Shown here in pieces: positions 11,001-30,876 of a stretch of 64,000 nucleotides of DNA (position 1 is the stretch's first letter; each line of letters begins with the position of its first letter). The notes below the pieces were generated by a model. That model was given only the letters and a program-made list of their open reading frames with translations, made no database searches and had not been told where the DNA came from. A program made the position numbers and the translations under genes. Source of the DNA: Paracoccaceae bacterium (GTDB lineage: Bacteria > Pseudomonadota > Alphaproteobacteria > Rhodobacterales > Rhodobacteraceae); NCBI GenBank assembly GCA_011620265.1, contig WOZM01000242.1, positions 16,174-80,173 of the forward strand, in the 5' to 3' direction.

Positions 11001-11822
11001 ATGTTCAGGGTCCAGACGCGCGCGACCGGACTGAGTTCGGCTCTGGTGATTCTGGAGCTGGTCTACCACAGCACCGTGCGCTCGATCCGGCGCGGACACC
11101 GCAACGCGCTGATGGGGGTCATCAACAACATCCTGCAGACGGTCATCTTCGTCGGCGTCTTCTACGTGATGTTCACCGTCCTCGGCCTGCGCGGCAATGC
11201 GATCCGGGGCGACTTCATCGTCTACCTCATGTCGGGCATCTTCCTCTTCATGACCAATACCAAGACGATGGGCGCGGTGGTCGGCTCCGAAGGGCCGACC
11301 TCGGCGATGATGCTGCATGCGCCGATGAACACCGCGATCGCCATCGGCTCCTCGGCGCTCGCGGCGCTTTATACGCAGGTCCTGTCGATGGTCGTGGTGC
11401 TCGGCGTCTACCACATGGCGTTCGAGCCGGTTCATATCGACGATCCGATCGGCGCGATGGGCATGGTCATCCTCGCCTGGCTGAACGGCGTCAGCGTCGG
11501 CATGCTGGTGCTGGCGATCAAGCCCTGGTGGCCGGGTTTCGCGAGCATCGCGCAGACGATCTACTCGCGGGCCAACATGATCGCCTCGGGGAAGATGTTC
11601 GTCGCCAACACGTTGTCCGGCACGATGCTGGCGATGTTCGACTGGAACCCGCTCTTCCACATCATCGACCAGGCTCGCGGATACGCCTTCATCAACTACA
11701 ACCCGCGCAATTCGAGTCTTGAATATCCGATCTACGTCACCCTCGCGCTGATCATGGTCGGCCTTGTCGGCGAATTCCACGCCCGCAAGAACGCCTCGAT
11801 CAGCTGGACCGCGGGCCGCTAA
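11001..11822 (+). CDS. ABC-2 type transporter permease (polysaccharide/capsule export-like)
   Basis: 273 aa, multiple hydrophobic segments; N-terminal STVRSIRRGHRNALMGVINNILQTVIFVGVFYVMF; KpsM/Wzm-like by eye. Confidence 0.75.
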   Translation: MFRVQTRATGLSSALVILELVYHSTVRSIRRGHRNALMGVINNILQTVIFVGVFYVMFTVLGLRGNAIRGDFIVYLMSGIFLFMTNTKTMGAVVGSEGPTSAMMLHAPMNTAIAIGSSALAALYTQVLSMVVVLGVYHMAFEPVHIDDPIGAMGMVILAWLNGVSVGMLVLAIKPWWPGFASIAQTIYSRANMIASGKMFVANTLSGTMLAMFDWNPLFHIIDQARGYAFINYNPRNSSLEYPIYVTLALIMVGLVGEFHARKNASISWTAGR

Positions 11823-12616: not shown

Positions 12617-12645
12617 CTTGCAGCGCTCATGACCGCTCCTTATAT
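12617..12645 (+). promoter_or_regulatory. Candidate RpoH (sigma-32) promoter for dnaKJ
   Basis: CTTG (12617-12620) - N18 - CTTATAT (12639-12645), matching alphaproteobacterial RpoH consensus CTTG-N17/18-CYTATNT. Confidence 0.65.
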
Positions 12646-24118: not shown

Positions 24119-24144
24119 ACGGGGCGCGGAAGCGCCCCGTTTTT
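24119..24144 (+). terminator. Second intrinsic terminator between the convergent small ORF and infB
   Basis: ACGGGGCGC-GGAA-GCGCCCCGT-TTTT. Confidence 0.75.
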
Positions 24145-26672
24145 CACGTCAGCTGACGCTCGACTTCCTCGCGCTCGAAGATCTCGATGACGTCGCCGGG
24201 GCGGATGTCCTCGTAGTTCTCGAACGCCATGCCGCATTCCTGGCCGGACTGCACTTCCTTGACTTCGTCCTTGAATCTCTTGAGGGTTTTCAGTGTCCCC
24301 TCGTGGATCACGACGTTGTCGCGCAGAAGCCGGACGCCGGCCGACCGGCGGGCGACACCTTCGGTGACGAGGCAGCCGGCAACCTTGCCGACGCCGGACA
24401 CCTTGAAGACTTCCTTGATCGAGGCGTAGCCGATGAACGTCTCGCGCACCTCGGCCTTCAGAAGGCCGGACGCCGCCGCCTTCACGTCGTCGACCAGATC
24501 GTAGATCACCGAGTAGTAGCGGATCTCCACGCCTTTCTGGTTCGCCGCGGCGCGCGCCGGCGCATTCGCCCGGACGTTGAAGCCGATGACCGGCGATCCG
24601 GAGGCCTCGGCAAGGCCGATATCCGATTCAGTGATCGCGCCGACACCGTAGTGCAAGACCCGGACGCGCACTTCTTCGTTCCCGATTTTTTCCATAGCCT
24701 GAACAATCGCCTCGGCGGAGCCCTGCACGTCGGCCTTCACCACGATCGGCAGTTCGGCGATGTCCTTGTCTTCCTTGGCCTTGGCCATGAGCTGTTCCAG
24801 CGTCGTCGCCGCGCCGGCGGCCGCGCGCTTGTCCTTCGCGGCCTTCTCGCGGTAGTCGGCGATCTCGCGGGCCTGCGCCTCGGTCTCGACGACGTTGAGG
24901 ACGTCACCCGCCTCGGGCGTACCGTTGAGGCCGAGGACCTCGACCGGAACCGACGGCCCGGCCTCGGCCACCCGCTCGCCCTGATCGTTGATCAGCGCGC
25001 GGACCTTGCCCCACTGCTCGCCGACGACGAAGATGTCGCCCTGACGGAGCGTGCCGTTCTGAACCAGGACCGTCGCGACCGGACCCCGGCCAACGTCGAG
25101 CTTGGCTTCGATCACGGCACCCAGCGCCGCGCGCTTCGGATTGGCCTTCAGCTCCAGAATCTCGGCCTGCAGCGCGATGGCTTCCAGGAGCGTGTCGAGC
25201 CCCTTGCCTGTCGTCGCCGAGACCTCGACATCCTGCACCTCGCCCGACATCGCCTCGACGACGACCTCGTGCTGCAGAAGATCGGTGCGGACCTTCTGCG
25301 GGTTGGCCGAGGGCTTGTCGCACTTGTTGATGGCAACGATCATCGGCACACCGGCGGCCTTGGCGTGATTGATCGCCTCGACCGTCTGCGGCATGACCGC
25401 GTCGTCGGCCGCGACGACGAGGACGACGATATCCGTCACCTGCGCGCCACGGGCCCGCATCGAGGTGAAGGCGGCGTGGCCCGGCGTGTCGAGGAAGGTC
25501 AGGACCGCCCCCGAATCCGTGGTCACCTGATAGGCGCCGATATGCTGGGTGATGCCGCCCGCTTCGCCCGAGACCACGTTGGTCTTGCGGATCGCGTCGA
25601 GAAGCGAGGTCTTGCCGTGGTCGACATGGCCCATGATCGTGATGATCGGCGGCCGCGACTGCAGGTCCTCGTCCTTGTCGTCCACCGTGTCGATCACCTG
25701 CTCCACGTCCGAATCCGACACGCGCACGACCTTGTGGCCGAATTCCTCGATGATGAGTTCGGCCGTATCGGCGTCGATGGCCTGGTTCATGTTGACCATC
25801 ATGCCCATCTTCATCAGGGCCTTGACCACGTCGGCGGCGCGTTCGGCCATGCGGTTGGCAAGTTCCTGGACGACGATCGTCTCGGGAAGCTGCACGTCGC
25901 GCACCTGCTTTTCGGGCCGGACATTGAGGCCGAGCGCCTTCTGCCGGGCGCGTTCCTGCTTGCGCTTCATCGCCGCCATCGAGCGCTGACGCCCGCCGCC
26001 GCCCGAAAGCGCCTCGCTCAGCGTCAGCTTGCCGGAGCGGCGACCCTCGTCGCGGCTGACCTTGCCGGCGCGGTCGCGATCGCCGCCGCCGCGGTCGTCG
26101 CGCTCGCGGTCGGTCTTGCGCGGGCCGGCGGTGGTCACGCCCTTGGTCTCGGCCCGGGACGCCGCGGCTTCGGCCGCGGCCGGATCGACGGTTGCGGCCG
26201 CAGCGGCCGGCTTCTTGAAATCTTCCTTGCGGGCGGCGCGGGCCTCGGCCTCTTCGGCGCGGCGCGCGTCTTCGTCGGCCTTGGCCTTCAGCGCTTCCTC
26301 GCGCTCGCGGTCCTCGCGCTCCTTGGCCTCGATCTCGGCGCGGCGACGCTCACGTTCTTCCTCGCGCTGGCGCTCGTCGGCGGCACGGGTCTGCGCCTCT
26401 TCGACTTCGCGGGCCTTGGCGGCCTGAAGCGCCCTCAGCCGGCGGTCCATCTCGGCATCGGAAATCCCGGCCGGCCGCCGCGACGGATCGCCCCGGCTCG
26501 CGGCCCCGCCGCCCGTGGCGGCAGGCGTCCCGCCCGCTTTCGGCACGACGACGCGCTTGCGTTTCGTCTCGACGACGACGCTTTTCGTGCGGCCATGGCT
26601 GAAGCTCTGCTTCACCTGGCCGGAACGCCCGCCACCGAGGCCGAGGGGTTTCTTACCGTCTGTATCGCTCAT
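24144..26672 (-). CDS. infB: Translation initiation factor IF-2
   Basis: 842 aa; [43 protein letters not shown]. Confidence 0.98.
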
Positions 26673-27298
26673 GCCGACTTCGCATCCTTCCCGGCGGTCG
26701 TCCCGCCGTCATCCTTCCGCAAGCTCGTAAGCTTTGCAGCTTCCTCTACAACACGCTTGGAGAGTCCACCAGCCGCAAGCGCGCCATGTACCACACTATC
26801 TCGTCCAAAGGCCAGACCGAGCTCGGACGCCGTGAGGCATCCGAACCAGCGCCCGCCTTCGGGGGTCCATAGCTTGCCCTTGCCGCGCTCCGATCCGTCG
26901 GAGGCCTGGAACAGGACCTTCGCCTTGCCGTCGGCGAGCCAGCCCTTGACCTTTTCGAATCCCGCGACGGCACGTCCCGCCTTGCGTGCCAGAGAGATAT
27001 GATCGACGACCCGCCGCGCCAACCCCGCCTCGACAATATCGCCGAGGTTCTCCGGCACCGTCACCGGCGCCTTCGCGGCCCGGGCAAAAAGCCCCTTCTT
27101 CGCTGCCTTCTCGATGGCGGCCCGGTCGGCCGTCACCCAGATGCCGCGACCGGGCAGCTTTTCGGCCAGATCGGGAACGAGCTGGCCCTCGGGGCCGACG
27201 ACGAAGCGGACGAGCCCGGCCTTCGGCTGCACGTCACCCGTGACGATGCAGCGCCGTTCCGGCTCATCCCTGTCCTTGTCGCGTCCCCCTCGGGTCAT
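26669..27298 (-). CDS. YlxR (DUF448) family RNA-binding protein with L7Ae-like C-terminal region
   Basis: 209 aa; [51 protein letters not shown]; between nusA and infB. Confidence 0.9.
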
Positions 27299-27321: not shown

Positions 27322-28932
27322 TCAGGCCTCGGCCTCCTCATCGGTATCGCCCTCTTCGGCATCCGTCTCAAGTTCCGCCGGATCGACCCAGCCAAGCTGG
27401 ATCCGCGCGGTCATCACGAGGTGCTGGGCCTCTTCAAGGCTCATGTCGAACTTCTCGAGCAGACCTTCGTCCTTCACCCGCTCGCCATTGACCGTGGTCC
27501 AGCCGCCGGCCAGTTCCCAGTCGGCGCAGGTGGCGAAGTCCTCGAGCGTCTTGACGCCGTCCTGCGCCAACGCCTCGAGCATCTGCGGCGTCAGCCCCTC
27601 GAACCCGACCAGGCTGTCCTCGACGCCGAGTGCGCGGGCGTTCTCCAGCGCCTTGCGGTTCTGCTCCTCGATCACGTCGCGGGCGCGGGCCTGAAGCTCC
27701 GACGCCGTCGCATCGTCGACGCCCTCGATGCTCAGCAGCTCGTCGAGGTCGACATAGGCCACCTCTTCGAGATTGGTGAAACCTTCGGCCACCAGAAGCT
27801 GCGCAAAGAATTCGTCGAGATCGAGATTGTCCATGAAGAGCTTGGTGCGCTCGGCGAACTCGGCCTGCCGGCGCTGGCTCTCTTCCTCTTCCGTCAGGAT
27901 GTCGATGTCGAGGCCGGTGAGCTGCGACGCAAGCCGCACGTTCTGGCCGCGCCGGCCGATGGCGAGGCTGAGTTGCTCGTCCGGCACCACGACCTCGATC
28001 TTGCCGGCTTCCTCGTCGATCACGACCTTGGAGACCTCGGCGGGCTGAAGCGCGTTGACGAGGAACGTCGCCTGATCCTCGTTCCACGGGATGATGTCGA
28101 TCTTCTCGCCCTGAAGCTCGTTCACCACGGCCTGCACACGGCTGCCGCGCATACCGACGCAGGCGCCCACGGGGTCGATCGAGTTGTCATAGGAAATGAC
28201 GCCGATCTTGGCGCGGCTGCCGGGATCGCGGGCCACGGCCTTGATCTCGATGATGCCGTCGTAGATCTCCGGCACTTCCATCTTGAAGAGCTCAGCCATG
28301 AACTGCGGATCGGTCCGCGACAGGAACACCTGCGGGCCCCGCGCCTCGCGCCGCACATCCTTGATGTAGCAGCGGATGCGGTCGTTCGGGCGATAGCTCT
28401 CGCGGCCGATCTTCTCGTTGCGGCGCAGGATCGCCTCGCCGCGACCGATATCGACGATGATGTTGCCGTATTCCTCGCGCTTGACCACGCCGTTGATGAT
28501 CGTGCCCTTGCGATCCTTGAATTCCTCGAACTGGCGGTCGCGCTCGGCCTCGCGGACCTTCTGCAGGATCACCTGCTTCGCGGACTGCGCGGCGATCCGG
28601 CCGAGATCGACCGGCGGCACCTCTTCCACGACCGTGTCGCCGACCTTCGGATCGTCGAGATACTGCCTGGCCTGCTCGACCGTCAGCTCCGCCTGGTAGT
28701 TCTCCAGCAGGTCATCCTCGACCACTGTGCGCACGCGCGTGAAGGTCGCCTTGCCGGTCTTGCGGTCGATGGCGACGCGGATATCCATCTCGGACCCGTA
28801 GCGCGACTTCGCGGCGCGGGCGAGGCTCTCCTCCATCGCCTCGATGACCAGCACGGGGTCGATCATCTTTTCCCGCGCGACGGCCTCGGCCGTTTGCAGA
28901 AGCTCCAGCTGGTTGGCAGAGGTAATCGCCAT
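27322..28932 (-). CDS. nusA: Transcription termination/antitermination protein NusA
   Basis: 536 aa; S1/KH domains ([32 protein letters not shown]) and helix-hairpin-helix C-terminal repeats. Confidence 0.98.
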
Positions 28933-29502
28933 TCATTCCTCCTCGGAAGTGTCTTCTTCAATGTCGTCGAACGCGGCTTCGTCGACCTTCTCGGTGGTCT
29001 TCTTCTGCCGCAGCATTTCGGTGATCAGCTCGTCGGTCAGCACAAGCTTGGCATCCGACAGCCAGTCGAACTTGAGGCCGATGGTGCCTTCCTCGATCTC
29101 GATCAGTACCTCGTCGCCCTCGGTCCCGGCCAGCTTGCCCTTGAAGCGCTTGCGGCCGTCCATCATCTCCGAGGTCTCGATCTTCGCCTCGTAGCCTTCC
29201 CAGACGTCGAAATCCTTCAGCCGGGTCAGCGGCCGGTCGATGCCGGGGGAGGAAACCTCGAGCGTGTACTGATCCTCGATCGGGTCCTCGACATCGAGAA
29301 CCGCCGAGACCGCGATCGAGATCTTGCCGCAATCCTCGACGTCGATCCCGCCCTCGGGCCGGTCGGCCATGATCTGCAGGGTCTTGTAGAGCCCGCCCAT
29401 CAGCCGGATGCGCACGAGTTCGAACCCCAGACCTTCGATGGTCGGGGTCACGATCTCGGCCAGGCGCCGGTCGATGGCGGTTTTGGCGATCAGTTCGGTC
29501 AT
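28933..29502 (-). CDS. rimP: Ribosome maturation factor RimP
   Basis: From [44 protein letters not shown]. Confidence 0.95.
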
Positions 29503-29515
29503 CGGTCCTTCAGAC

Positions 29516-29541
29516 AACAAAAAACGGGCCCAGCGGCCCGT
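29516..29541 (-). terminator. Intrinsic terminator immediately upstream of rimP (attenuator candidate)
   Basis: Minus strand ACGGGCC-GCTG-GGCCCGT-TTTTTGTTG; 3' end is about 14 nt from the rimP start codon. Confidence 0.8.
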
Positions 29542-29596
29542 CGCACTTTCCCGGTGGGCTGCGAGTTTGGACCCCGTAGCCGCGCTGTTGAACGGC

Positions 29597-29625
29597 ATAT
29601 AGGCGAAGGTGGGCGAGTCTGCAAG
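29597..29625 (-). promoter_or_regulatory. Candidate promoter of the rimP-nusA-infB leader (sigma-70 and/or RpoH-like)
   Basis: Minus strand CTTG-N18-CCTATAT, overlapping TTGCAG-N17-TATATG. Confidence 0.55.
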
Positions 29626-29711
29626 CGCAAGAGTGTCGGCACCCTGAATGTCAGGGGTTGGGCCAGCGCCCCAACCGCCGGGCGCGGGGTCGCTGCCGAC
29701 CCCAAATCTCT

Positions 29712-30170
29712 CTATGATCCATCGGGATTGTTCCGCCAAATCCAGAAATTCAGCGCGGTAGCAACCGACAGCCAAGCGAGATAGGGCAAAAGAAGCACGG
29801 CCGCGTATCCATCAAGTGCCCAGAACTGCGGGATCATCACGGCGACCGTCAGCCAAAGAAGGGTGATGACGACCAGGCCCGCGCGCTTGTGGTGACCGCC
29901 GAAGAAGACCGGCGTCCAGAGCGTGTTGAGAGTGATCTGCAACGACCAGAAGGCCAGTGCAGTCCCGCTCCCTGGAACCGACGCGACCCGCGCGGCGGCG
30001 ATCGCGATGACGATGTAAAGGATCGTCCAGACCACTGGAAAGGCCAGACGCGGCGGCGTCCAACTTGGTTTGTTCAACCGCTCGTACCAGCTGCCCGGCT
30101 GAAAGATCATGCCAGTCGCCGCAGCCGCGAGGCAGGCACTGAAAAAGGCGGCGAAGGCCGTAAGCTCCAA
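29712..30170 (-). CDS. tspO: TspO/MBR family tryptophan-rich sensory protein
   Basis: TTG start with [44 protein letters not shown]...[11 protein letters not shown]. Confidence 0.9.
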
Positions 30171-30243
30171 GATCAGTCCCCTCTCAGGCGTGTCGGGACG
30201 ATACGTCCGGGTGTGGCGCGGGTTCCCACGGCACTGACCGCGA

Positions 30244-30876
30244 TCAATCCCCGCTCTTCCATCCCTGATCCCGGTGCGTCCCGTCGCAATAGGGCTTGAT
30301 CCCCGATTTGCCGCAACGGCAGAGCACGTATTTGCGGGGTGTCGTCGCCTCCCCCGGATGCGGGGTCGCGATCTCTGCGTCGTGGACCATGTAGGGTCCA
30401 TCGCGCATCACCTCGATCCGGGCGCGTTCGGCGATTAGATGACCAACCCCGGCAGCGGATCGCAGACCCAATGCGCCCGAGGGGCAATGGGCGATAACCT
30501 CCTCGATCTCGGCGCGGCTGCCCTTGTCCGGCCGGACCCAGGGCTTTTCGGCGGAGTTGAAGACCTGCGGCGCGATCCGGGCGCATTCAGCGGCATGGGC
30601 GCAGACGAGGGGGTTGAACGTCACCGTGACCTTGGCCCCTTCATAGTCGACCACCCGGTTTCGCCCGGCGGGCGTGCCGGACGCGCTGTCGAAACCGTTG
30701 GTCTTGTGGCTGCCGTCGCAAAAGGGCTTGGTCTTGCTGCCACCACACCGGCAGAGCGCCATGACCGGCTTGACTTCCAGCGTCTGCCCACCGGGTCCCT
30801 TGAGCGTGTCGAGCCCCTTGACCACTAGCGGCCCGTTTTCCCGCGCCTCGATTGTGATCCTGGTGTCTTCGCTCAT
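30244..30876 (-). CDS. CDGSH iron-sulfur protein with two CDGSH motifs flanking a divergent ferredoxin-like (Fer4_19) segment
   Basis: CRCGGSKTKPFCDGSH and CRCGKSGIKPYCDGTH; middle NPLVCAHAAECARIAPQVF...HCPSGAL. Confidence 0.9.
   Translation of the reverse strand: MSEDTRITIEARENGPLVVKGLDTLKGPGGQTLEVKPVMALCRCGGSKTKPFCDGSHKTNGFDSASGTPAGRNRVVDYEGAKVTVTFNPLVCAHAAECARIAPQVFNSAEKPWVRPDKGSRAEIEEVIAHCPSGALGLRSAAGVGHLIAERARIEVMRDGPYMVHDAEIATPHPGEATTPRKYVLCRCGKSGIKPYCDGTHRDQGWKSGD

Follow-up and report, generated by a model that had tools for sequence, protein, structure and literature searches.

This study suggests that the leader preceding rimP in a 64,000-nucleotide stretch of DNA from a Paracoccaceae bacterium (hereafter the window) attenuates transcription of the rimP-nusA-ylxR-infB operon by adopting one of two folds that exclude each other, a reading to which we give a probability of roughly 0.6. 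Computational support for it comes from the conservation of the element, a hairpin (P1), a terminator motif and the pairing of a 5' box with the terminator arm. Attenuation by the leader terminator as such appears well supported by the comparison of related leaders. A first-pass annotation of the same DNA had proposed a leader terminator before this operon, together with a particular antiterminator helix and a heat-shock input. The terminator is upheld by the Pfam assignments of the genes, by its conservation in the family and by its likeness to the known rimP-leader motif, but the helix named in that annotation is not supported and the RpoH input looks weak.

On the minus strand, the promoter TTGCAG-N17-TATATG is followed by CAACAGCGCGGCTACGGGGTCCAAACTCGCAGCCCACCGGGAAAGTGCGACGGGCCGCTGGGCCCGTTTTTT and, 16 nt beyond the T tract, by the start of rimP with its ATG at 29502 (Table 1). 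A direct read of this strand bears out the promoter, the leader and the terminator whose U6 tract adjoins the ribosome-binding region of rimP, all at the positions annotated before. The figures needed some correction: from the predicted start (about 29589) to the last T the leader, which begins with CAACAG at 29590, measures about 71 nt and ends in T6, in place of the approximately 88 nt from the promoter and the T5 given earlier. All four genes of the operon are confirmed by Pfam.

Table 1. Coordinates of the leader element, its operon and the upstream gene in the window.
Feature	Position	Strand	Basis
Promoter TTGCAG-N17-TATATG (-35 TTGCAG 29624-29619, 17-nt spacer, -10 TATATG 29601-29596)	29596..29624	-	direct read; -10 and spacing kept in family leaders
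5' box CAACAGCGCGGC (family consensus CAACAGCGGC), proposed antiterminator strand	29579..29590	-	at least 90% conserved columns in the 53-leader alignment; pairs with terminator 5' arm/loop
P1: 5' arm GGCTACGGG 29581-29573, loop GTCCAAA 29572-29566, 3' arm CTCGCAGCC 29565-29557	29557..29581	-	covariation
CCACCGG box	29551..29557	-	core invariant in alignment of 53 leaders; CCG can pair with CGG of terminator 5' arm (P2)
A-rich linker GAAAGTGCGA	29541..29550	-	10-11 nt in 154 of 170 leaders; last A is the first terminator-stem base
GCCGC in the 5' arm/loop of the terminator, partner of the 5' box GCGGC (29583-29579) in the predicted antiterminator P3	29533..29537	-	pairing and co-changes
Intrinsic terminator ACGGGCC-GCTG-GGCCCGT + T6 (stem 29541-29535 / 29530-29524, loop GCTG, T6 29524-29519)	29519..29541	-	direct read; GGGCC in all aligned leaders
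rimP, first gene of operon	28933..29502	-	Pfam RimP_N and RimP C-terminal domain
nusA, candidate feedback regulator	27322..28932	-	Pfam NusA_N, KH_5
ylxR	26669..27298	-	Pfam YlxR
infB (IF-2)	24144..26672	-	Pfam IF-2, GTP_EFTU
tspO, upstream gene	29712-30299	-	same strand as leader

By single-sequence statistics, neither the terminator nor the fold is out of the ordinary. Six terminator-like sites were found against 7.6 expected from composition, and the fold of the whole leader has a z of -0.42, so that the reality of the element rests on comparison within the family. We therefore rely on an alignment of 53 leaders from RimP loci of relatives and on a covariance model built from it. The model matches 111 of 121 Rhodobacteraceae genomes, with 120 genera sampled, and 105 of the 109 genomes of good quality; nearly all of the 111 carry one strong copy. 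The genome of the window, which RimP identity to named records places in the Defluviimonas/Albidovulum group of this family, also has one copy (E 8e-19), the next best match (E 0.04) being treated as chance. In a class-wide sample, strong matches occur only in the window genome and two other Rhodobacteraceae; outside the family there are weak matches in seven genomes (E 5.6e-5 to 7e-3), the best of which, in G098, does not lie at rimP. The element thus seems to be family-wide in Rhodobacteraceae and essentially absent elsewhere in the class. GGGC...GCCC-T stretches could be seen by eye before rimP in most other alphaproteobacterial families that were read, but the other parts of the element were missing there.

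Among the loci inspected, the leader immediately precedes rimP, with fewer than 100 nt between T tract and gene in each of the 170 leaders parsed. Within the terminator stem GGGCC hardly varies and is present in 53 of 53 aligned leaders. The family-wide layout consists of a 5' box AACAGCGGC at the predicted start, P1, an almost invariant CCACCGG, an A-rich linker of 10-11 nt and the terminator GGGCCGC..GGCCCG-U6; everything in it that precedes the terminator was missed by the first-pass annotation. As judged from this comparison, terminator, leader and promoter are conserved together across Rhodobacteraceae, and it is the comparison that establishes the element. The linkers pair with their own terminator arm more weakly than with swapped arms (z +4.3). 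Linker-terminator pairing therefore seems to be avoided, as if a competing pairing were selected against, and a functional helix between the two was rejected.

The promoter is, on the same comparison, part of the conserved unit. A -10 element is recognisable in 162 of the 170 distinct family leaders, and TTG stands exactly 17 nt upstream in all 162. The distance from the first T of the -10 to the 5' box is mostly 12-13 nt, which makes CAACAG the most likely start of the transcript, with a predicted start at 29589/29590. The heat-shock hint of the earlier annotation relied on a match to CTTG-N18-CCTATAT. Such a match is present, and CTTG-N17/18-CCTATAT has a single occurrence in the 64-kb window against none in 100 shuffles, which would agree with an RpoH promoter and with heat shock as the main input. 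However, the -10 reads TATATG/C, with G or C at -7 after TTG-N17-TATAT, in nearly all of the 162 leaders, and this is the look of a typical alphaproteobacterial sigma-70 promoter (PMC8407463). In addition, the main text of the paper on the RpoHI/RpoHII regulon of R. sphaeroides names none of nusA, rimP and infB. The promoter fits the ordinary sigma-70 type, TTG-N17-TATATG/C, as far as its sequence tells, and heat shock as the main input is quite improbable. A second promoter-like match, TTGC-N19-TATAT, lies at 12618-12645 on the plus strand of the window.

Among the structures of the leader, hairpin P1 is strongly supported by covariation. Two-sided changes occur at all eight tested pairs, the covariation score of the whole structure is 0.296 against 0.139 when shuffled and at most 0.078 when slid (0.292 against 0.130 on 98 rows), and the arms pair far better with their own partners than with swapped ones (z -17.7). 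P1 of the window genome contains an A-C mismatch (29577/29561). A likeness of its loop to the tRNA T-arm was dropped, because UCCA is missing from P1 in 39 of the 170 leaders, and small loops of other kinds occur in several.

The second conserved structure, and the one that carries the switching part of our reading, is the helix that the 5' box can form with the terminator arm. An unbiased scan of columns returned, besides P1, a link between these two segments (pair 7-56). In the helix GCGGC:GCCGC, 90.5% of cells are paired across the family against at most 65.5% when slid, and box and arm pair better with each other than when swapped, both for the 8-nt core (z -4.2) and for leaders outside the genus (z -3.6). 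AGAGG boxes always occur with CCTCTG terminators, in five loci comprising the Frigidibacter-type L075, L082, L084 and L104 together with L231, which lies far from them on the RimP tree; the matching changes have thus taken place in at least two separate lineages. By inspection, leaders with CCTGT terminators are still able to pair ACAG:CTGT. Predicted folds of the RNA up to GGGCCGC pair the box with the terminator arm in 159 of the 170 leaders, compared with 22% for shuffled leaders and 33% for shuffled boxes. Relative to the full-length minimum, this antiterminator state is higher in energy by a median of 4.9 kcal/mol, a gap that allows competition between the two folds. In several of the printed nascent folds the CCG of CCACCGG is additionally placed on the CGG of the terminator arm, which hides both halves of the arm. 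P2 is paired in 99.7% of cells, but its columns are nearly invariant and the figure carries no covariation signal. A conserved pairing exclusive with the terminator, as expected of an RNA-switch attenuator, is found in 5' box:GCCGC.

Support for the antiterminator consists of conservation and few independent co-changes. The independent changes of box and terminator amount to one pair on well-supported branches and five on the best tree, and the column covariation is weak in a fixed register, with 46 of 500 shuffles reaching it. Within the genus of the window, box and terminator show no sign of optimised pairing (z -0.5, n=12). The genus leaders (L001-L022) fall into two types, with box CAGCGCGGC mostly accompanying the loop GCTG and box CAGCGGCGC mostly the loop GCAG; since CAGCGGCGC would pair better with GCTG, pairing strength is not simply maximised. 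The 5' box of the window genome overlaps P1 by three bases, so that the predicted nascent fold breaks P1. Among other pairings considered, that of the 5' box with CCACCGG as an anti-antiterminator gave z -0.6 and no covariation signal, and an extension of P2 through the linker was weak, two different splits giving z -2.1 and -0.2. Divergent members of the family (L056, L057 and L059) keep the GGGCC terminator, and box-terminator pairing is apparently kept in L056 (ACGGC:GCCGT) and L059 (GAGCGGC:GCCGCTC), by inspection.

The idea of an antiterminator in this leader thus survives in principle, through the 5' box and not through the helix proposed in the first pass. That helix, GCCCACCGG (29559-29551) with CCGCTGGGC (29536-29528), does form eight of nine pairs in the window sequence. 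Over 53-170 leaders, however, the covariation check was negative: the cells are paired in 62.1% against 62.4% when shuffled, the covariation score falls below the shuffled mean, and in pairing energy the own partners have no advantage over swapped ones (z +0.16 overall, +1.33 outside the genus). It is very improbable that these segments form the antiterminator.

In the mechanism that we infer, from the start site through switching and actual termination to NusA as the signal, RNA polymerase would start at CAACAG and P1 would form first. As GGGCCGC emerges, the 5' box (GCGGC) would capture GCCGC, and the CCG of CCACCGG could take the CGG just 5' of it; the resulting three-way-junction antiterminator would conceal the terminator's 5' arm. 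Once made, the 3' arm GGCCCG would compete, and where the terminator wins, transcription would stop at the U6 tract and leave an RNA of about 70 nt. The balance would most likely be set by NusA, and perhaps by pausing, with excess NusA favouring termination of its own operon; another product of the operon or the speed of transcription might set it instead. Such autoregulation is plausible by analogy with B. subtilis, where NusA stimulates termination in its own nusA leader and autoregulation is established (PMC12288461). With a lower probability, and as a tentative extension, the hairpin P1, whose loop carries UCCA, might combine with the nearly invariant CCACCGG into a candidate binding site for a product of the operon (NusA, RimP or IF-2) or for another signal, which would make the leader a distinct family-wide protein- or ligand-sensing RNA switch with its 5'-terminal box as antiterminator.

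Other explanations of the element have to be weighed against this attenuator with two folds. The level of NusA might set termination without any RNA switching, P1 and CCACCGG then being a protein-binding or RNA-stabilising element. This would agree with the B. subtilis leader, in which NusA regulates itself through stimulated termination (PMC12288461), and with the work of Naville and Gautheret, who saw no general antiterminator and favoured recognition of the stem by NusA (PMC2965389). Nevertheless, it does not account for a 5' box that is conserved, lies at the predicted start and changes in step with the terminator loop, and we consider it rather unlikely. The terminated RNA of about 70 nt could instead be a trans-acting small RNA, with the terminator serving mainly to make it. 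In Rhodobacteraceae, termination in the leader of mraZ yields UpsM, an abundant sRNA (PMC5089854), and a list of attenuator-derived sRNAs associated with ProQ includes the RNA of the enterobacterial rimP leader (PMC5391140). The P1 stem and its loop, however, vary in sequence while the structure is kept, unlike a base-pairing seed, which leaves this explanation little likelihood.

The idea that the element only serves to terminate the upstream gene has next to no chance of being right, even though tspO lies on the same strand with the element downstream of it. The gene upstream of the leader varies (a TspO homologue in 18 of 123 loci, tRNA-His in L017), while promoter, leader and terminator stay together before rimP.

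The attenuator that we favour belongs to a group already recognised. Terminators with the motif GGGc...gCCC in rimP leaders were described by Naville and Gautheret in 2010, with the rimP-leader proposed as a NusA target and with no larger element and no general antiterminator reported (PMC2965389). The present leader resembles this attenuator (PMC2965389; RF01770) in that its terminator lies just before rimP-nusA-infB and combines a GGGc...gCCC stem (GGGCC..GGCCCG-T6) with a U tract next to the ribosome-binding site. It differs in its larger element (5' box, P1 and CCACCGG) and in the pairing that would compete with the terminator; the gammaproteobacterial rimP-leader, in contrast, uses a second, upstream tandem terminator (PMC2965389). 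A search of Rfam gave no match in the window leader, nor does RF01770 (rimP) match this part of the window at E<=10. Above its gathering cut-off (47 bits), RF01770 occurs in none of 31 genomes, with no match at all in G000, and in one of 14 control genomes.

Two other leaders are also comparable. That of the B. subtilis nusA operon (PMC12288461) is likened to ours by description and not by sequence: both have a leader terminator of a nusA operon, and the NusA-stimulated feedback shown in B. subtilis is what we propose for Rhodobacteraceae. The UpsM/mraZ leader of Rhodobacteraceae (PMC5089854) is likewise a 5' leader present throughout the family, has an internal terminator against which refolding is predicted, and yields a short RNA. 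It belongs to another operon, is 206 nt long and has another structure, and UpsM is demonstrated by RNA-seq whereas the rimP-leader RNA is predicted. Our literature search found no paper on the Rhodobacteraceae version of the rimP-leader and none on Rhodobacter or Ruegeria leaders or RNAs that mentions rimP. An attenuator before rimP is thus known and widespread, while the Rhodobacteraceae version with its 5' box, P1, CCACCGG and competing helix appears to be undescribed.

Of the attenuators predicted in bacteria, the rimP-leader is reported to be the most widespread, although neither an antiterminator nor a sensor was visible in it. Rhodobacteraceae keep a compact version of about 70 nt, in which a covarying hairpin and a competing helix can be tested directly by compensatory mutations. 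The long-standing question of how the rimP-leader sets the levels of NusA and IF-2 thereby becomes tractable in Rhodobacter-type strains, and a structured RNA outside the coverage of Rfam is provided.

The rimP frame is open upstream through the leader and the terminator (28933-29775 on the minus strand, with a TTG start at 29775). Relatives often have open frames that exceed RimP in length, and automatic annotation may wrongly extend RimP. Elsewhere in the window, Rfam RF02645 (Ruegeria Cis2 sRNA) matches at 11565-11716 on the minus strand with 81.3 bits (E 9e-15).
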